A DNA stretch of 44,755 bases, from contig JAQSWP010000004.1 of the NCBI GenBank assembly GCA_029266575.1, positions 1-44,755 on the forward strand, in the 5' to 3' direction. Made by a program: the position numbers and the translations under genes. Origin of the DNA: Alphaproteobacteria bacterium. Lineage in GTDB: Bacteria > Pseudomonadota > Alphaproteobacteria > Reyranellales > JAQSWP01. Positions 7,497-16,710 of this stretch are shown here, piece by piece. Numbering within the stretch: position 1 is the stretch's first letter; each line of letters opens with the position of its first letter. The notes beneath the pieces are model-generated. The model did not search any database. It was not told the DNA's origin and saw only the letters and a list, made by a program, of their open reading frames with translations.

Positions 7497-8993
7497 TCAA
7501 TGAATGGCGGCGTACATGATCTTTTCTTCGGTCGCCTCAAGCGCCGAGAATTCCTCCACTACCTTGCCCTGGCGGCAGACCAGCAAACGGTCCGACAGCG
7601 CCATGACTTCCGGCAGATAGGACGAGATCACCACCACCGCCTTCCCTGAATCGGCCAGATCGTTGATCAGGCGGTGGATTTCGGTGATGGCGCCGACATC
7701 GACGCCACGCGTCGGCTCGTCGAAGATCAGCAGGTCCGGCTCCTGCACCAGCGACTTGGCGATCACCACCTTCTGCTGGTTGCCGCCGGAGAGCTCCACC
7801 GCCTTGGCGTCGCCCGAGATGGCGCGGATGTTCAGCGCCTTGATCCATTTCTCGCCGACGCTGCTGGCTTCGCGGTTCGAGACCAGCTTGCGCTTGCCGC
7901 GCAGCTTGGCCAGCAGGCCCATATAGATGTTGCGCGAGATCGACATGGTTTCGAAAAAGCCTTCGAGCTTCCGCTCTTCCGTAATATACGCGATGCCGTC
8001 GCGGATGGCGGGCGCGGGCACCAGGTAGCGCACCGGCTTGTCGTGCAGCAACACCTCGCCGCCGTGGAAGAAGTCGCGCTTGATGACGCCGGCCACCACC
8101 TTGAAGGTCTCGGTGCGGCCGGCGCCGACCAGGCCGAACACGCCGGTGATCTGGCCGGCGAACACCGACAGCGAATTGTTCTTCACCATCGACGCCATGC
8201 GCAGATTCTGCACCGACAGCACGCGCTTGCCCGCGGGACGCACCGTCGTCTTGCGCTGGCCGTACAGGGTTTGCGACAGATCGCGGCCAACCATGGCCTG
8301 CACCACCCTGGCGCGGTCGAATTTGGCCGCGTCGTCGGTGACGACGTGCTTGCCGTCGCGCAGCACGGTGATGCGGTCGGCGATGAACAGCGCCTCTTCC
8401 AGCGCGTGCGAGATGAAGATGATCGACACGCCGCGCTTCTTCAACTCGATCACCAGGTCGAAGAAATACTTCTTCTCTTCCGGCGTCAGGCTGGCGGTGG
8501 GCTCGTCGAAGATGATGACCTTGGCGTTGTGCAGCACCGCGCGGGCGATTTCGACCATCTGCTTCTTGGCCGCGCCCAGCAGGCTGACCGTGGCGGTGGG
8601 CGCCACGTCGAAGTTCAGCGACTGCAGGAACTGCTGGGCGGCGATGTAGATGCCGCGCAGGCGATTGAAGTATTTCTCCTGACCCAGAAACAGGTTCTGC
8701 GCCACCGTCATCGACGGCACCAGGCTGTTCTCCTGGAACACCATGGCGACGCCAAGCTCGCGCGCTTCGTTGGGCGTGCGCGGATTGACCGGCTTGCCCT
8801 CGATCAGCATTTCGCCCGACGTCAGTGCCACGACGCCGGCCATGATCTTGGTCAGGGTCGATTTGCCGGCGCCATTCTCGCCGACGATGGCGTGAATCTC
8901 GCCCTTGATCAGGGTAAAATCGACGTCCTCGATCGCCGGCACGCCGGCATATTTCTTGGTCGACTTGCGCAGTTCGAGAATGGCGGTACTCAT
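7497..8993 (-). CDS. Sugar-type ABC transporter ATP-binding protein (two NBDs, RbsA/MglA family)
   Basis: A 498-residue protein with two tandem nucleotide-binding domains, as in carbohydrate importers of the RbsA/XylG class. NBD1 has Walker A GENGAGKST, a Q-loop at VFQENSL and Walker B VIIFDEPTAS, but its signature is LLGAAKKQ instead of the usual LSxAxxQ. NBD2 has the family's degenerate P-loop, GLVGAGRTE, an intact LSGGNQQKV signature and Walker B LLIFDEPTRGVDVG. Both domains are therefore specialised, as is normal for this class. It energises uptake through the two permeases encoded upstream. It is the last gene of the operon; its ATG overlaps the stop of the propeller gene (ATGA). Confidence 0.93.
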   Translation of the reverse strand: MSTAILELRKSTKKYAGVPAIEDVDFTLIKGEIHAIVGENGAGKSTLTKIMAGVVALTSGEMLIEGKPVNPRTPNEARELGVAMVFQENSLVPSMTVAQNLFLGQEKYFNRLRGIYIAAQQFLQSLNFDVAPTATVSLLGAAKKQMVEIARAVLHNAKVIIFDEPTASLTPEEKKYFFDLVIELKKRGVSIIFISHALEEALFIADRITVLRDGKHVVTDDAAKFDRARVVQAMVGRDLSQTLYGQRKTTVRPAGKRVLSVQNLRMASMVKNNSLSVFAGQITGVFGLVGAGRTETFKVVAGVIKRDFFHGGEVLLHDKPVRYLVPAPAIRDGIAYITEERKLEGFFETMSISRNIYMGLLAKLRGKRKLVSNREASSVGEKWIKALNIRAISGDAKAVELSGGNQQKVVIAKSLVQEPDLLIFDEPTRGVDVGAITEIHRLINDLADSGKAVVVISSYLPEVMALSDRLLVCRQGKVVEEFSALEATEEKIMYAAIH

Positions 8994-10075
8994 GCCTGAA
9001 CGCTCCGCTCGACGTCTTGCACCGAAATACGCAACAGCCGCCTGGGCCCCTTGGCCAGCATGTACAGCGCGCCGTCGATCTCGATTGCGGCTACCACGCC
9101 GTGGTTCTTGCCGTCGACGCGGCTGTGCAGCGAGTAGCGCAGCAGACCGTCCGGCGCCAAACGGACCACCAGCCCATAGGAACGCGGCGGCGCCCAGGGC
9201 TTCAAGATGCCCATGGTCTTGATGTGCGCGCCTTGCATCGGCTCGAGGAAAGTGTTGCCCGAGGTCAGCGCCGGCGACACCCAGTAGCGCGGATCGATCT
9301 CCTTCATCATGCGCGTGCGATAATCGCGTTCGCGCAAGACGAACTCGACCAGCTGCGTGCGGGTGATGAAGACGGAGAGCCAGAAGCCGCCGCCCGCAGC
9401 CGGCGTCAGGCGCGAGGGGTAGCCCGGCAGGCGGTCGACGACCGGACGGCCCTTGCCGCCGTTGCTTGTCAGCGACAACACGCGATGACGCCAGCTTTCG
9501 CTGACCCATATTTCGTTGCCAGCGGCGGCAATACCGAAGGCATATTCCAGCCCGCTGGCAATTTCGCCCGGTTCGCCGGCGGCGGGAATGGCGATGGCGC
9601 GGCCGCTGCGACCCAGCCCCATCAGATCATGAACCCATTTCTCGGGCGGGTTCTCTTTCGAGCCATCGGTGGCGTAGATCGTGCCGTCGGCGCCGACCGA
9701 CAGAGCATTGATGGCAACGAACGGCTTGCCGTTTGCTGCATTCCAGCTCTGGCCATCGGCACGGCGAATCTGTTGGCCGTCCAGCGCGACGATCAGCGAG
9801 CCGTCGGCGGCGCAGGCCAGTGCCGTCACCGGACGGTCGAAGGTCGCAATCTCGACGCCCGCACCGTTCTGCCAGCGCAGCACGCGCCTGCCATCGGCGA
9901 TCAGCAGCGACTTGCCGTCAGTCGCCAGATCCTCCGGGGCGTCGAAGGTCGCCAGGATTTCGGCATCCTCGATCAGGCGGTTGGGTTTCAGCGCACCGTC
10001 CATCGGCGGCACGGTGATCGCCGCCTCGCCGCGGCCCAGGAAACGGTCGGAGAAGGATTTCAGCGCCTGTATCAC
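8990..10075 (-). CDS. Soluble strictosidine synthase/SMP-30-like beta-propeller protein
   Basis: A 361-residue protein with repeated beta-propeller blade motifs (for example APEDLATDGKSLLIADGRRV, ALSVGADGTIYATDGS, LEYAFGIAAAGNEIWVSESW). The segment LPGYPSRLTPAAGGGFWLS matches the strictosidine-synthase/SMP-30 lactonase group, whose members are metal-dependent hydrolases or related enzymes. No signal peptide is visible, so it is probably cytoplasmic. The start is a GTG that overlaps the preceding gene's stop as GTGA, and its own stop overlaps the ATPase start as ATGA. That packing argues for stoichiometric co-synthesis with the transporter. It may process the imported substrate or sense it; the substrate is unknown. 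The large upstream part of the open frame is out of frame with the fusion gene and is not coding. Confidence 0.85.
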   Translation of the reverse strand: MIQALKSFSDRFLGRGEAAITVPPMDGALKPNRLIEDAEILATFDAPEDLATDGKSLLIADGRRVLRWQNGAGVEIATFDRPVTALACAADGSLIVALDGQQIRRADGQSWNAANGKPFVAINALSVGADGTIYATDGSKENPPEKWVHDLMGLGRSGRAIAIPAAGEPGEIASGLEYAFGIAAAGNEIWVSESWRHRVLSLTSNGGKGRPVVDRLPGYPSRLTPAAGGGFWLSVFITRTQLVEFVLRERDYRTRMMKEIDPRYWVSPALTSGNTFLEPMQGAHIKTMGILKPWAPPRSYGLVVRLAPDGLLRYSLHSRVDGKNHGVVAAIEIDGALYMLAKGPRRLLRISVQDVERSVQA

Positions 10076-12189
10076 GACAACTTGCCCCAGCGCAGATCGT
10101 ACTGCACGAAGTTGGGATCGGCGCCTTCCAGCTTGTAGCGTCCGATGCGGTTGTTGAGGATGCCGCCGAGATAGAGATAACCCTTGTGCTCGCGCATCGA
10201 GGTGATCATCGGGTGATTGACACCGCCCAGATCCCACAGCGATTCCAGCACCTCGCCCTTCTCGTTGAACTTGATGACGCAGCCGGTGTTGATGTTGGGG
10301 AACAGCCATTCGTCGACCGGCACCCGCTTGGCCATGCGCTTGCGGAAGCCCGGCATGCGCCAGGCCAGATCGAGCGCCGGGCAGCGCATGCCGACCATGG
10401 CCAGCCAGTAATGCCCGTCCGAGGAGATGTTGATATTGTCCGGATAGCCCGGAAGATTCTCCATCACCATCTCGACCTTGCCCTTCTTGGGCCCGTCGAA
10501 CCAATAGCGCTTGACGCTGCAGCCGAAGGTCTCGGCGAAGAAGATCGATTGCCCGTCGCCCGCGATGCAGATGCCGTTGGGGAATTTCAGCCCGCGCACG
10601 GCGGTGTGCGTCGAGTTGGTCTTGGGGTCGTAGCAGATGATGCGCCCGTTGCCGCGCGCTTCCAGCCCGTCGACCGGCCATTCATGCATCTCGTAGCGCA
10701 CGGTGGCCTCGGAGAAGAAGATGCGCCCGTCATCGGCGATATCGAGATCGTCGGCAAGGCGCAGGCGGCTGTCGTCGGTCACCGAGTTCCAGCTGCGGTT
10801 GGTCTCGTCGGTTGCCTTCTCGACCTTGCGGTCGGGCGTGATGCGATAGAGCCCCATGCCGCCGATGCAGACATAGAGATTGTCCTCGCGGTCGAATGCC
10901 ATGCCCAAGGGCTGGCCGCCGATATGGGCATAGACTTCGTGCCGCTTATAGTCGGGCGGGAAGAAGCGGATGATGTCGCCATGCCGCGAGCCGGCATAGA
11001 GATTGTCGTGCCGGTCGAGGATGACGTCCTCGGGCGCCTCGATCTCGCCCAGGCCGATGGCCGAAACGTTGCGCAGCTTGTCGTTCTGCGCCCACGCCGT
11101 GCCGCTGTCGGGCGCCGTCGAAGGCAGCTCCGGCATGTCGTGATAGTTCGGCGCGACATAGACCTTGCTGATGATGCGATGCCGATTCTTCAGCCAGCGG
11201 ATGTCGATTACCGCCGCCAGCAACAGGATGCCCGCCAGCACCATGCGGTTGACGCCGCCCGGCACCGACAGCGACACCAGGCTGTTGGTGATCAGCAGCA
11301 CGATCAGGGTGCCGACCACCGCCTTGGTCACCGACCCGTTGCCGCCACCCAGGCTGATGCCGCCCAGAACCGCCGCCGTCAGCACCAGCACTTCCAGCCC
11401 GACGCCGATATCGCCGCCGACCGTGGCCAGGCGCGAAGCGAAGAAGACACCCCCCAGCGCCGACAGCATGCCGCTCGCCACGTAACACATCGTGATGGTG
11501 CGGCGCACGGCGATGCCCGAGTTGTAGGCCGAGCGGCGCGAGCCGCCGATAGCGGTGATGTGCCAGCCCGGCCGCAGGCGCGTCAGGAAGACATGGCCGA
11601 AGATCGCCAGCGCCACATAGACGAAGGCGACGGTTGGGATGCCGTAGAGCTCGCCGGTGCCGAGGAAATCCCATACTTTTGAATCGGGAAACCCGCCGGC
11701 AATCTGGGTCGAGTAATCGAAGATCAACAGATCGTAAACGGCGCGATAGATGATCAGCGTGATCAAGGTCGTGATAAAGGCGCGCAGACGGAAAAAGCCG
11801 ACCAGGATGCCATTCACCGCGCCCAACGCCGCGCCGAAAACAAGCGTCGCCGGAACTGCGGCCGCCACCGGCCAGGCCAGCACATGCATAAGATAGAGCG
11901 CGAAGAAATTGGTCAGCGCGAACATCGATCCCACGGAGAGATCGATACCGCCCACGATCATCACCAGCGCCATGCCGAAAACGATGAAGCCGATCTCGCT
12001 GGCCTGGCGGGCGGTGTCGGCCAGAATGGCGGGGGCGAAGAAGCCGTCCAGCAACCGGCTGAGCACGAAACCGACGATTAGCAACACGATCACCGGGACG
12101 CCGGTTTCGGTCCAGCGCTTGGACAGGATTTCGCCGAGCAGATGGTCGGGCCAGTACTTGTAACGCAGCCGCGTAAGAGTGTCGCTCAT
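10072..12189 (-). CDS. ABC permease fused to a strictosidine synthase-like beta-propeller
   Basis: A 705-residue fusion. Residues ~30-335 form a polytopic permease of the RbsC (BPD_transp_2) family, with GFIVFGMALVMIVGGIDLSV and TAAVLGGISLGGGNGSVTK as diagnostic segments. Residues ~360-705 form a beta-propeller of the strictosidine-synthase/APMAP type, with FFSEATVRY, GLKFPNGICIAGDG, VKRYWFDGPKKGK and NLPGYPDNINISSDGHYW. The linker follows the last helix at RWLKNRHRIISK, whose positive charge suggests the propeller lies on the cytoplasmic side. An ordinary permease is ~330 aa, so the length is doubled. The ATG at 12189 is preferred over GTG at 12201. The design suggests processing or sensing of the substrate as it exits the channel. 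Confidence 0.9.
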   Translation of the reverse strand: MSDTLTRLRYKYWPDHLLGEILSKRWTETGVPVIVLLIVGFVLSRLLDGFFAPAILADTARQASEIGFIVFGMALVMIVGGIDLSVGSMFALTNFFALYLMHVLAWPVAAAVPATLVFGAALGAVNGILVGFFRLRAFITTLITLIIYRAVYDLLIFDYSTQIAGGFPDSKVWDFLGTGELYGIPTVAFVYVALAIFGHVFLTRLRPGWHITAIGGSRRSAYNSGIAVRRTITMCYVASGMLSALGGVFFASRLATVGGDIGVGLEVLVLTAAVLGGISLGGGNGSVTKAVVGTLIVLLITNSLVSLSVPGGVNRMVLAGILLLAAVIDIRWLKNRHRIISKVYVAPNYHDMPELPSTAPDSGTAWAQNDKLRNVSAIGLGEIEAPEDVILDRHDNLYAGSRHGDIIRFFPPDYKRHEVYAHIGGQPLGMAFDREDNLYVCIGGMGLYRITPDRKVEKATDETNRSWNSVTDDSRLRLADDLDIADDGRIFFSEATVRYEMHEWPVDGLEARGNGRIICYDPKTNSTHTAVRGLKFPNGICIAGDGQSIFFAETFGCSVKRYWFDGPKKGKVEMVMENLPGYPDNINISSDGHYWLAMVGMRCPALDLAWRMPGFRKRMAKRVPVDEWLFPNINTGCVIKFNEKGEVLESLWDLGGVNHPMITSMREHKGYLYLGGILNNRIGRYKLEGADPNFVQYDLRWGKLS

Positions 12190-12228
12190 CTGCTGTCTCA
12201 CTCGTCGAACACTGTAGGGAAGATGGTT

Positions 12229-12252
12229 GGGCCGGCTCAGCGGAGCCGGCCC
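12229..12252. other. Strong GC hairpin in the binding-protein/permease gap
   Basis: A perfect 10-bp stem, GGGCCGGCTC (12229-12238) with GAGCCGGCCC (12243-12252), and a 4-nt loop. It lies 22 nt past the stop of the substrate-binding protein gene and 39 nt before the next start. No T-run follows on the minus strand, so it is more likely an mRNA-stabilising or partial-attenuation hairpin, which would raise binding-protein output relative to the membrane components, than a full terminator. Confidence 0.65.
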
Positions 12253-12273
12253 ATGATTTCCAGAACGTGACGC

Positions 12274-13302
12274 CTAGGTCTTGTTCAGCGTCCAGCAGGT
12301 GCCGGGCTTGCCGGCGTTTTCCTTGGTGATCGGAATCAGCGTCGTATAGATCGAAGTCTGCGCATCGCCCGGCTTGACCTTCGACTGCAGCAGGAACTTG
12401 ATCATCGCCGCCATGGTCGAAGCCTGGGTCGGCACGTCGTAACTGATGTCATAGTCGAACGAGCCGTTCAGCACCTGATCGCAGGCGCCCTTCTGCTCGC
12501 CGCCGCCCGACGTCGCCAGGAACACCTTGCCCTGCAGGCCGGCTTCCTTGATCGCCGCCGCCGTGCCGATATCCATGCCGTCCCAGAAGCCGACGATGCC
12601 GCACAGATCGGGGTGCTGCTTGAGCACTGTCTGCGCGATGCCCTTGGCCTTGGCGGCATCCCAGTCGGCCGCCTGGCTCGATACGACCTTCACATCCGGG
12701 TTCTTCGCCAGAACGTTCTCGACGCCCTTCAGCGTGTAAGCGGACGCCGCAGCCGAGAGCTGGCCCTGCATGATGGCGATCTTGTTCGACTTGCCCTTGC
12801 AGGCATTGACCACCGCCGTGCTGACCTTCTCGCCGATCTCGATCCAGTCGGCGCCGACATAGGCCGCCGTCGGAAAGCTCGAACGCATGTTGATCTGGAT
12901 GACGTGAATGCCATCCTTCTCGGCGCGCTGCAGCAGACGGGCATAGGTCTGCACGTCCGGGTTATGGATGATCATGACGTCGGGCTTTTCCGAGATCAGC
13001 GTCGTCACGGCCTGGGCGCCGGCATTGGTGCTCCAGTTCGGATCGCGCACCACGACCTTGACGCCCAGCGGATCCAGCTCCTTCTTCAAGCCCTGGAGCC
13101 AGCCCTGCGCCAGGTCGAAGCCCATCGCAACCGGCACATAGGCGACGGTCTTGCCCTCAAGGGTCTTCAGGTAACCGGCGCGGAATGGCTCGTCGAGGCC
13201 CTTGCCTTGCGCCAGGGCGGCTTGCGAGAAGCCCACGATGCCGGCGGCCATGGCCATGCCGGCCACTGTCCGCGTTACTACATTGCGTGTCTTGCTTGGC
13301 AT
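12274..13302 (-). CDS. Periplasmic sugar-type substrate-binding protein of ABC importer
   Basis: A 342-residue protein of the periplasmic-binding-protein type I (RbsB-like, Peripla_BP_4) fold. A signal peptide (basic MPSKTRNVVTR, hydrophobic core, cleavage likely after ALA-31) is followed by GKTVAYVPVAMGFDLAQGWLQGL, ISEKPDVMIIHNPDV, and a hinge/second-lobe region with GIVGFWDGMDIGTAAAIKEAG. It captures the substrate outside the inner membrane for the two permeases. GGAGGA is spaced well before the ATG. The ligand cannot be read from sequence; pentoses, polyols or other small sugars are possibilities for the family. It sits second in the operon, behind the first permease. Confidence 0.93.
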   Translation of the reverse strand: MPSKTRNVVTRTVAGMAMAAGIVGFSQAALAQGKGLDEPFRAGYLKTLEGKTVAYVPVAMGFDLAQGWLQGLKKELDPLGVKVVVRDPNWSTNAGAQAVTTLISEKPDVMIIHNPDVQTYARLLQRAEKDGIHVIQINMRSSFPTAAYVGADWIEIGEKVSTAVVNACKGKSNKIAIMQGQLSAAASAYTLKGVENVLAKNPDVKVVSSQAADWDAAKAKGIAQTVLKQHPDLCGIVGFWDGMDIGTAAAIKEAGLQGKVFLATSGGGEQKGACDQVLNGSFDYDISYDVPTQASTMAAMIKFLLQSKVKPGDAQTSIYTTLIPITKENAGKPGTCWTLNKT

Positions 13303-13348
13303 GTTCTGTTTCCTCCGATGATTTGACTGCTTCGTTACGCGACTGAAA

Positions 13349-14320
13349 TCAGATGTCTCCCTGCTGCGCCGTTTCCTCATTGCGGGGATTGAGGAAGGAA
13401 TCGGCCAGGATGGCGACCAGCAGCACCACGCCCTTGACCAGATTCTGCGCCGAGTACGAGAAGTCGAGGATCGTCATGCCGTTCAGCATGGTACCGATCA
13501 GCAAGGTGCCGATGATGACGTTGGGCACGCCGCCGCGGCCGCCCGACAGGCCGATGCCGCCCAGCACCACCACGAGGATGACGTCATAGATCATGGTTGA
13601 ATTGAAGACGCGAGTCGGCATCGAGTTGATCGAAGCCGCCATCACGAAGCCGGCGAAAGCCGCGATCAGCGCCGCGAGCACGTATTGCAGCAAAATGATC
13701 GGCCGGGTCGGGATGCCGGTGGTGCGCGCACCGAACGGATTGTCGCCCAAGGCGTAGATATAGGCGCCGATCCGCGTTTGCCGCAGAAACAGCGCGACGA
13801 TCGCCGCCGCAATGCCAAACATCACCACGGGCATCGGCACACCCAGTATGCCACCGCGACCGAACCAGCCCAGCCCGTCGAGCGCCGCCGGCCACTGCAC
13901 CACGTCGAGTTGGAAGAAGGCGACCTGTCCCAGACCGGCCAGAAACAGACCTGAGGCCAGCGTCGTAAAGAGCGATGGAACTTCGGCATAGGCGACCAGC
14001 CAGCCATTGACCAGGCCGAATACGATCACCAGGGCGAATGCAGCAACGACGGAAATCGTCGGGCCATAGCCGTTTTGCACCATTTGCAAAACAAGACCGG
14101 GCGGCACGGCGAGGGCGGCGATCATCGAAATATCGATGCCGCGGCTGATCACCACCAATGCCATGCCAAGCCCGAGAATGCCGAGGAAGGCCACGTTTTG
14201 CAGCAGCGCCAGCATGTTGGGCGCACTGAAAAAGCCCGGAAGGAACAGCGCGAAGATGGCGAACAGGACTACGAAAATGGCGAAGACAATCGCCTGCTGC
14301 GTCACGCGCTGTTTTCTCAC
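13349..14320 (-). CDS. ABC transporter permease (RbsC-like), first gene of operon
   Basis: A 323-residue polytopic membrane protein of the BPD_transp_2 family. The motif GILGLGMALVVISRGIDISM and the C-terminal VVVLGGIGLSGGRGGVPN are diagnostic. It has no fused domain, in contrast to its partner permease, so the transporter is probably a heterodimer. The start is GTG, supported by GAGGAG 9 nt upstream. It begins the operon; the gene order is permease, binding protein, permease-propeller, propeller, ATPase. Confidence 0.92.
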   Translation of the reverse strand: MRKQRVTQQAIVFAIFVVLFAIFALFLPGFFSAPNMLALLQNVAFLGILGLGMALVVISRGIDISMIAALAVPPGLVLQMVQNGYGPTISVVAAFALVIVFGLVNGWLVAYAEVPSLFTTLASGLFLAGLGQVAFFQLDVVQWPAALDGLGWFGRGGILGVPMPVVMFGIAAAIVALFLRQTRIGAYIYALGDNPFGARTTGIPTRPIILLQYVLAALIAAFAGFVMAASINSMPTRVFNSTMIYDVILVVVLGGIGLSGGRGGVPNVIIGTLLIGTMLNGMTILDFSYSAQNLVKGVVLLVAILADSFLNPRNEETAQQGDI

Positions 14321-14649: not shown

Positions 14650-16710
14650 ATGACCAATCCAGCGAACGCAAGTGGAACCAAAACCGGCAGGGGACCCCGC
14701 GCGGTGGCGCTGTGCGGCCCCTATCTCAGCGGCAAGACCAGTTTGATGGAAAGCCTGCTGTTCGCCGCCTCCGCCCTGCCCCGCAAGGGCAGCGTCCGCG
14801 AGAAGAACCTGACCGGCGACGGCAGCCCCGAATCGCGCGCCCGCCAGATGACCATCGACGTCAACGTCGCCCAGGCGGAGTGGATGGGCGAGACCTTCCA
14901 TTTTCTCGATTGTCCCGGCTCGATCGAATTCCAGCATGAGACCGCCTGCACTCTGATGGCCGCCGACGCCGCAATCGTGGTGTGCGAACCCGATCCGGCG
15001 CGCGTCATCGGACTGGCGCCGCTGCTGCGGTTCCTGGAAGAGCGCCACATCCCGCATCTGATCTTCGTCAACAAGATGGAGAATTCCTCGGCCCGCGTGC
15101 GTGATCTGCTGGCGGCACTGCAGACCGTGTCCAACCGCAAGCTGATCCTGCGCCAGGTGCCGATGCGCAAGGCGGCCAAGGACGGTGTCGAGGAAATCAC
15201 CGGCTATGTCGATCTGGTGAGCGAGCGGGCCTATCGCTACATGCCGGGCCGCCCGTCGGATCTGATCGAGATGCCGCAGGAGATGCTGCCGCGCGAAAGC
15301 GAGGCGCGTCGTGAGATGCTGGAGGCGCTGGCCGATTACGACGACCGGCTGCTGGAGCAGCTGCTCGACGACGTGGCGCCGGAGAAGAGCACCATCTATC
15401 GCGACCTGCGCGAGGAATTCGGCAAGGAGCAGATCGTGCCGGTGCTGCTGGGCAGCGCCGAACGCGATCACGGCATCCAGCGCCTGTGGAAAGCCTTGCG
15501 CCATGACGTTCCAAGCGTCACGGAGACCGCAAAGCGACGCGGCCTGGCGGGCGGCGGCACGGTGATCGAAGTGTTCAAGACCCTGCACCAGCCGCATACC
15601 GGGAAAATGTCGCTGGCCCGCGTCTGGCAAGGGAACGTCACCGAAGGCAAATCGGTGGGCAGCCAGCGCATCGGCGCGCTCTATCGCCTGCAAGGCAGCA
15701 GCCAAAGCAAGCTGCCGCAGGCCGAAGCCGGCGCCATTGTCGGCCTGGCCAAGCTCGATACGCTGGCCAGCGGGCAGGTTCTCGGCGACGAGACCATAGG
15801 TGACGTACGGCAGGACTGGCCGACGCCGCCAACGCCGGTGTTTTCGCTCACCATCACGCCCAGGAACCGCACCGACGACGTGAAGCTTTCGGCGGCGCTG
15901 CACAAGCTGCGCGAGGAGGATGCCGGGCTGCTGGTCGAGCATCGCCCCGAGTCCTCGGAACTGGTGCTGTCCGGCCAGGGCGAAATCCATCTGCAAGTGG
16001 CGATCGAGCGACTGGGCAACCGCTACAATGTGCCGGTCTCCAATGTCCTGCCCAAGGTCGCCTATCGCGAAACCATCCGCCGCGGCGCCAGACAGCATGG
16101 CCGGCACAAGCGGCAGACCGGCGGCCACGGCCAGTTCGGCGACGTGCATATCGACATCCAGCCGCTGCAACGCGGGGCGGGCATCCAGTTCAACGAAACC
16201 ATCGTCGGCGGCTCGGTGCCACGCCAGTACATTCCTGGTGTCGAAGCCGGGGTGCGCGACTACATGAAACAGGGACCGCTGGGCTTCCCGGTGGTCGACG
16301 TGTCGGTGACCCTGACCGATGGCTCCTATCACAACGTCGATAGCTCGGAGCAGGCCTTCCGCCAGGCCGCGCGCATTGCCTTGAGCGAGGCCATGCCCAA
16401 ATGCGAGCCGGTGCTGCTGGAGCCGATCCTGAAGGTGACGTTCCAGATCCCCAACGAAGCCACCGCCAAGGTGCAACGCCTGATCTCGACGCGGCGCGGC
16501 CAGATCCTGGGCTTCGACGCCCGATCCGGCTGGCGCGGCTGGGACGAGGTTTCGGCCCTGATCCCGGAATCGGAAATGGCCGGGCTGATCGTGGAGATCC
16601 GCTCGCTCAGCTTCGGTGTCGGCACCTATCGCGCCGAGTTCGACCATCTGCAGGAATTGGGCGGCAAGCTGGCCGACCGGGCGCGGCAGCAGGCGACCGC
16701 GGCCGCCTGA
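14650..16710 (+). CDS. Elongation factor G-like GTPase (EF-G paralogue)
   Basis: A 686-residue protein with the EF-G layout: G domain, domain II, then domains III-V (SGQGEIHLQVAIERL, RQTGGHGQFGDVHIDI, VSVTLTDGSYHNVDSSEQAF). The P-loop is GPYLSGKT (23-30) and G4 is NKME (141-144), with Glu replacing the usual Asp. Switch II reads DCPGSIEF (87-94); the catalytic His of canonical EF-G (DTPGHVDF) is Ser91 here. The effector loop is short and poorly conserved. These changes match the EF-G-like (FusA2-type) paralogues instead of the main translocase, so it may act in a specialised ribosomal role or as a slow GTPase. AGGGAGG precedes the ATG. It stands alone, not in a str operon. Confidence 0.88.
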   Translation: MTNPANASGTKTGRGPRAVALCGPYLSGKTSLMESLLFAASALPRKGSVREKNLTGDGSPESRARQMTIDVNVAQAEWMGETFHFLDCPGSIEFQHETACTLMAADAAIVVCEPDPARVIGLAPLLRFLEERHIPHLIFVNKMENSSARVRDLLAALQTVSNRKLILRQVPMRKAAKDGVEEITGYVDLVSERAYRYMPGRPSDLIEMPQEMLPRESEARREMLEALADYDDRLLEQLLDDVAPEKSTIYRDLREEFGKEQIVPVLLGSAERDHGIQRLWKALRHDVPSVTETAKRRGLAGGGTVIEVFKTLHQPHTGKMSLARVWQGNVTEGKSVGSQRIGALYRLQGSSQSKLPQAEAGAIVGLAKLDTLASGQVLGDETIGDVRQDWPTPPTPVFSLTITPRNRTDDVKLSAALHKLREEDAGLLVEHRPESSELVLSGQGEIHLQVAIERLGNRYNVPVSNVLPKVAYRETIRRGARQHGRHKRQTGGHGQFGDVHIDIQPLQRGAGIQFNETIVGGSVPRQYIPGVEAGVRDYMKQGPLGFPVVDVSVTLTDGSYHNVDSSEQAFRQAARIALSEAMPKCEPVLLEPILKVTFQIPNEATAKVQRLISTRRGQILGFDARSGWRGWDEVSALIPESEMAGLIVEIRSLSFGVGTYRAEFDHLQELGGKLADRARQQATAAA

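Follow-up and report, generated by a model that had tools for sequence, protein, structure and literature searches.

A CUT2-type ABC importer with two strictosidine-synthase-like beta-propellers, one fused to a permease: a candidate esterase/lactonase tethered to the channel

This study concerns a five-gene cassette for an ATP-binding cassette (ABC) importer, found in a 44,755-nucleotide stretch of DNA (the window; GenBank assembly GCA_029266575.1, contig JAQSWP010000004.1, positions 1 to 44,755) from an alphaproteobacterium of the Reyranellales. The cassette is an operon on the minus strand, read from 14320 to 7497 in the order permease 1, binding protein, permease fusion, propeller 2 and ATPase. 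Permease 1 (13349..14320, 323 aa) is of the RbsC type (BPD_transp_2, by Pfam and NCBIfam) and carries no propeller. The second gene (12274..13302, 342 aa, ATG at 13302) encodes a periplasmic substrate-binding protein with a Pfam Peripla_BP_4 domain and a signal-like N-terminus. The third (10072..12189, 705 aa) joins a second permease to a strictosidine-synthase-like (SSL) beta-propeller, as seen with Pfam, AlphaFold and orthologues. Its open reading frame (ORF) is taken to start at the ATG at 12189, an in-frame GTG upstream at 12201 being a possible alternative. The permease domain covers residues 1-338 (11176..12189), with ten predicted transmembrane (TM) helices, and the propeller domain covers residues 365-705 (10075..11097). 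The stand-alone propeller 2 (8990..10075, 361 aa) starts with GTG, and the last gene (7497..8993, 498 aa) encodes an RbsA/XylG-type ATPase with two nucleotide-binding domains (NBDs). The stop codon of the fusion and the start of propeller 2 share a GTGA overlap (10072..10075), and propeller 2 and the ATPase share an ATGA overlap (8990..8993). A first-pass annotation made from the sequence had listed two RbsC-type permeases, a binding protein, a double-NBD ATPase, two propellers and both overlaps; all five genes were located and the overlaps are exact.

Homologous cassettes were collected by a genome-collection scan, which gave 80 loci, and by a plasmid search, in which 15 records covered at least 80% of the query and the remaining matches were partial. 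The fusion was one uninterrupted ORF in 97/97 sequences with a complete fusion gene, the window included, and the gene order was kept in every intact locus. A -4 overlap joined the fusion to propeller 2 in 70/97 loci and propeller 2 to the ATPase in 69 loci, where it was the commonest spacing. In a phylum-wide survey of 399 genomes, 16/16 full-length places were fused and none was split. A frameshift that joins two genes in annotation or assembly would account for one odd ORF. It is rejected, and we regard it as practically nil in probability, since orthologues with the identical fusion and a conserved linker span alpha-, beta- and gammaproteobacteria, complete genomes and plasmids among them. 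The permease::propeller fusion is thus genuine, ancient and widely conserved in bacteria, and the first-pass claim that a propeller is attached to the C-terminus of the second permease survives the frameshift check: homologues were never separate genes, either in the 97 orthologues or in the 16 survey places. The cassette is common in Bradyrhizobium, relatives of Reyranella/Enhydrobacter, Comamonadaceae, Rhodobacterales and Rhizobiaceae. Cassettes about 78-79% identical to that of the window also occur in two records named as actinobacteria, L036 (Frankia sp. RB7) and L109 (a Mycobacteriaceae metagenome-assembled genome), which are probably misnamed or contaminated assemblies.

Both propellers belong to the SSL/SMP-30 superfamily, as first proposed from the translations, with a profile search carrying the assignment for the fusion and structure prediction, Foldseek and a tree carrying it for propeller 2. 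Pfam placed BPD_transp_2 at residues 56-326 of the fusion (2e-32), SSL_N at 365-409, Str_synth at 480-566 (3e-18) and SGL at 412-601; propeller 2 gave only a weak NHL match, so that its membership comes from fold and tree only. AlphaFold modelled propeller 2 confidently (predicted local distance difference test, pLDDT, 86.8; predicted template modelling score, pTM, 0.86). The fusion scored lower (pLDDT 75.5, pTM 0.49), its domains being good internally. With Foldseek against the Protein Data Bank (PDB), strictosidine synthases and TGW6 were the best matches of propeller 2, followed by paraoxonase and the RPA3624 lactonase. Among the best matches of the fused propeller were TGW6 (8kg3), strictosidine synthase, the RPA3624 lactonase, DFPase and paraoxonase. 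Sequence searches with the fused propeller also returned TGW6 first (1e-23), and TGW6 was the closest solved sequence to the propeller 2 profile.

In the tree, the fused propellers formed a single clade (support 100/98), as did the propellers 2 (100/100). Within the stand-alone SSL proteins the two clades grouped as sisters, though weakly (84/66); the long branch of propeller 2 leaves its exact placement unsure. Pfam, sequence search and tree agree that the fused propeller is closer to SSL proteins than to gluconolactonases. Stand-alone bacterial SSL proteins (L012-L019, L133-L140) are about 30-39% identical to it and have the same metal ligands, discussed below, but they lie outside this ABC cassette and bear a single N-terminal TM anchor. 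The metal-dependent hydrolases of the fold (SMP-30/gluconolactonase, RPA3624 lactonase, DFPase and paraoxonase 1, PON1) share with the fused propeller six blades and a metal site of the form E / N(D) / N / D(N), at a sequence identity of only about 15%. We know of none of them as a transporter fusion.

The fused propeller keeps a putative metal site of the paraoxonase/DFPase type. By alignment, the candidate ligands are encoded on the minus strand by the codons of E387-D388 (11026..11031), D480-D481 (10747..10752), N538 (10576..10578) and D584-N585 (10435..10440). E387, D388, D481, N538, D584 and N585 were invariant among the aligned fused propellers and position 480 was D or N. The tetrad E, N or D, N, D was present in 16/16 members of the test set, and over the 97 fusion sequences E387, N538, D584 and N585 were each at least 97% conserved. 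In stand-alone relatives position 387 is E, 480 is D or N, 538 is N, 584 is D and 585 is N. SGL proteins from related genomes have matching residues at 480 (N), 481 (D), 538 (N) and 584 (D); at E387 their rows are shifted in the alignment, and every SSL row has E there. The DFPase residues E21, N120, N175 and D229 are those mutated in PDB entries among the Foldseek matches of the fused propeller. In PON1 the calcium ligands are E53, D54, N168, D169, N224, D269 and N270, and we take the ligand set of the fused propeller to correspond to this combined catalytic and structural set. Real Ca sites of this fold hold at least two acidic residues, and rice TGW6 (PDB 8KG3), a stand-alone plant hydrolase of indole-3-acetic acid-glucose, has one and binds no Ca2+ (PMC10958001). 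TGW6 resembles the fused propeller in the N and DN motifs of its site but differs from it in this acidic count, which is three in the fused propeller. These residues make the fused propeller a candidate metal binder, the metal being probably Ca2+.

The same positions have been lost in propeller 2. The equivalents of N538 are mostly F, A or S, those of D584 are S, A or G, and that of N585 is R; 0/16 propellers 2 keep N538 or D584. Propeller 2 thus looks like a pseudo-enzyme, and at most the fused propeller can be a metal-dependent hydrolase. The question, raised with the first-pass annotation, of whether the propellers have conserved pocket residues is therefore answered differently for the two: the fused propeller has conserved metal-type ligands and propeller 2 has not.

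Strictosidine synthase (PDB 2FP8 and others) shares fold and sequence branch (Str_synth, SSL_N) with the fused propeller but not its active site. An ungapped alignment put T663 of the fusion at the catalytic Glu309 (which we presume to be correctly placed, the Rauvolfia residue having been recognised by its H-x-E motif), and the positions of N538 and D584 are both Gly in strictosidine synthase. With neither the catalytic Glu nor a pocket free of metal-type ligands, the fused propeller was rejected as a true strictosidine synthase; "strictosidine-synthase-like" names its branch correctly but misnames its chemistry. A broader proposal is that the propeller performs some other chemistry of the fold family, such as a strictosidine synthase-like condensation or a DFPase-like phosphotriester hydrolysis, the imported substrate being a natural product or a xenobiotic. 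The fold matches to strictosidine synthase and DFPase and the variable gene neighbourhoods would suit it. The active-site differences just described and the lack of consistent xenobiotic genes near the cassette speak against it, and we give it little credence.

The side of the membrane on which the propellers act was predicted from charge bias and predicted helices; no solved structure usefully matched the permease by sequence. The mean number of K+R per loop in the orthologues, from the N-terminus to the segment after TM10, was 3.2, 0.0, 0.0, 0.3, 2.0, 0.1, 3.1, 0.0, 1.0, 0.4 and 4.4. The value of 3.2 belongs to the N-terminus, 3.1 to the coupling-helix loop and 4.4 to the segment after TM10. 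This alternation over ten helices, with 4.4 K/R after the last, argues for both termini inside, which would place the fused propeller in the cytoplasm. Propeller 2 of the window has no visible N-terminal TM anchor, and both propellers are predicted to be cytoplasmic. The stand-alone SSL proteins, with one N-terminal TM segment and intact metal ligands, apparently face the periplasm. If these predictions hold, the cassette appears to have shifted the domain to the cytoplasmic side.

By its domains and profile matches, the importer core is an ordinary CUT2 (RbsA/RbsC-type) transporter. One operon holds RbsC-type permeases, a single double-NBD ATPase and a Peripla_BP_4 binding protein (Pfam, NCBIfam), as in RbsABC, XylFGH and LsrABCD, and the use of two different permeases is shared with LsrC/LsrD. 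The cassette ATPase also has the CUT2 pattern of a canonical Walker A in NBD1 and a canonical LSGGN signature in NBD2 only. Its NBD1 signature (window 8534-8581) reads LGAAKKQ instead of LSGGQ, a change largely kept across 81 cassette ATPases, and Walker A of NBD2 is K-less, which leaves a single consensus ATP site, the arrangement of RbsA-type proteins. Unlike CUT2 importers, the cassette has a six-bladed propeller at the C-terminus of permease 2 and a propeller 2 co-translated with the ATPase. The first-pass statement that classical sugar importers have none of the components was too broad: ATPase, permease and binding protein are typical of CUT2, and the propellers alone are foreign. In a related importer locus (L134:1-2445), a permease 41% identical to that of the fusion and a double-NBD ATPase apparently form one ORF of >815 aa without a propeller.

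Such a core raises the possibility of an ordinary sugar or sugar-lactone importer with a gluconolactonase-like domain, its substrate an aldonolactone or sugar derivative. The best-scoring models for the subunits were those of xylose, arabinose, ribose and allose, and RefSeq names the fused protein SMP-30/gluconolactonase/LRE. FGGY sugar kinases are immediate neighbours in two non-redundant loci, and sugar genes lie near some plasmid loci. However, no subunit approached the curated cut-off of any sugar equivalog in NCBIfam: the ATPase scored 460.8 against 699 (xylose), the permease 158 against 398 (ribose) and the binding protein 68.5 against 335 (allose), which sets the cassette apart from CUT2 sugar importers. 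The closer relation of the propeller to SSL proteins than to gluconolactonases also counts against a sugar importer, as does the gene neighbourhood, in which the significant neighbour is an acyl-CoA ligase and not a sugar enzyme. We consider a sugar importer improbable.

The neighbourhood survey listed likely genes near the cassette at 60 loci, the fusions of which share less than 90% identity. Acyl-CoA ligases (AMP-binding) made up 14/34 co-directional ORFs within 100 bp and 6/394 other nearby ORFs (Fisher p 6e-13), the effective count behind this statistic being lowered by shared descent among loci. The ligases belong to at least two subfamilies, and their position varies: they are upstream of the cassette in Bradyrhizobium and Burkholderiales, and in Rhizobiaceae-like loci they are downstream of it. 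Other recurrent neighbours are AraC and TetR regulators, enoyl-CoA hydratases and CoA-transferases. On the strength of the ligase association, what the cell obtains from the substrate is most likely a carboxylic acid for activation with CoA, and not a sugar.

Since carboxylic acids are both the products of lactonases and esterases and the substrates of acyl-CoA ligases, we prefer a model of import, hydrolysis and CoA activation. In this model, a CUT2-type ABC importer would have acquired two cytoplasmic six-bladed propellers of the SSL branch. The binding protein would hand an ester or lactone of a carboxylic acid to a heterodimeric channel of permease 1 and permease 2::propeller, driven by the one double-NBD ATPase. 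The tether past the last TM helix of permease 2 would hold the fused propeller where the channel opens into the cell. There it could serve as an esterase/lactonase that depends on a metal (probably Ca2+), hydrolysing the substrate on arrival and so trapping it inside. The paralogous pseudo-enzyme, propeller 2, may sit beside permease 1 as a matching structural or regulatory half, and the freed acid would pass through an acyl-CoA ligase to a beta-oxidation-type breakdown. Metal binding, hydrolysis, the nature of the substrate, the heterodimer and the pairing of propellers with permeases are what we infer here. For the whole, a CUT2-type importer with a channel-tethered metal-dependent esterase/lactonase feeding an acyl-CoA pathway, we would put the chances at just short of even. 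The stricter version, in which import and first catabolic step form one machine, with cleavage at the channel exit (vectorial trapping), a pseudo-enzyme twin on the other transporter half and products fed to an acyl-CoA pathway, is somewhat more tentative.

Several observations weigh against the preferred model. The cassette of the window adjoins no acyl-CoA ligase, the examined stretches of about two thirds of the non-redundant loci hold none, and neighbouring genes differ in type between loci. AlphaFold leaves the position of the propeller relative to the permease unfixed (pTM 0.49). The fold family includes non-hydrolases, such as strictosidine synthase, and binding proteins, and TGW6 of the same fold binds no Ca (PMC10958001). 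The hydrolysis or sensing of a lactone- or ester-like substrate in the cytoplasm, as envisaged in the first-pass annotation, thus gains from the predicted cytoplasmic side and from the metal-type pocket of the fused propeller and loses from the absence of ligands in propeller 2; hydrolysis itself stays at the level of a proposal.

The main rival explanation takes up the sensing half of that idea. On this view neither propeller would be a catalyst. Both would act in the cytoplasm as sensors or gates and adjust transport (trans-inhibition) on binding either what has been imported or a product formed from it later, a role that accessory domains play in some other ABC importers. Propeller 2 has lost its metal ligands in every homologue examined and is always retained, which suggests that at least this propeller serves something other than metal catalysis. 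The covalent tether and the translational coupling to the ATPase would also fit a stoichiometric regulatory part. The full ligand set of the fused propeller, which a mere binding domain would not need, argues against it, and on balance we think this explanation unlikely, if a serious contender.

Neither the importer core nor the propeller family is new in itself; their combination is annotated only piecemeal in public records, as "sugar ABC transporter", "SMP-30/gluconolactonase/LRE family protein" and "hypothetical protein", names that are probably misleading about the substrate. Literature searches (the fusion, ABC plus strictosidine synthase, gluconolactonase plus permease, and RPA3624), in which coverage of subscription journals was thin, found the cassette described nowhere; a Bradyrhizobium paper mentioning a putative gluconolactonase gene had no link to it. 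To our knowledge, no ABC importer of this architecture has been described. If the preferred model is true, an enzyme attached covalently at the channel exit of this transporter couples uptake to the first catabolic step. The acyl-CoA ligase link makes the question of the substrate directly testable.

Some minor observations concern the genes around the cassette. In the window it is flanked by an aspartate transaminase and by a paralogue of elongation factor G; no functional link was seen with the latter, a PRK12740-type gene at window 14650-16710 (+), divergent from the cassette. Adjoining ligase and crotonase genes prompted a ferulate-type pathway (ligase plus hydratase/lyase) as a candidate, which was dropped. 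For the crotonases, the matching models were those of general enoyl-CoA hydratases, with the p-hydroxycinnamoyl-CoA hydratase/lyase model absent among the matches listed. Mevalonate was likewise dropped as a substrate, HMG-CoA reductase adjoining the cassette in one locus only (Shinella HZN7). In Comamonadaceae, a TetR regulator (TetR_N plus TetR_C_24) and an acyl-CoA ligase form one continuous ORF (about 770 aa) that lies 5-36 bp upstream of the cassette (L075:3477-5825, with equivalents in L068, L071-L073, L080-L084, L087, L088, L091 and L094); a Met near the junction is kept in most, making an internal ligase start possible. Directly downstream of two other cassettes, an acyl-CoA ligase and an enoyl-CoA hydratase share a single ORF of 883-887 aa, identified by profile match in L112 (12705-15353) and by length and position in L105 (12693-15353).

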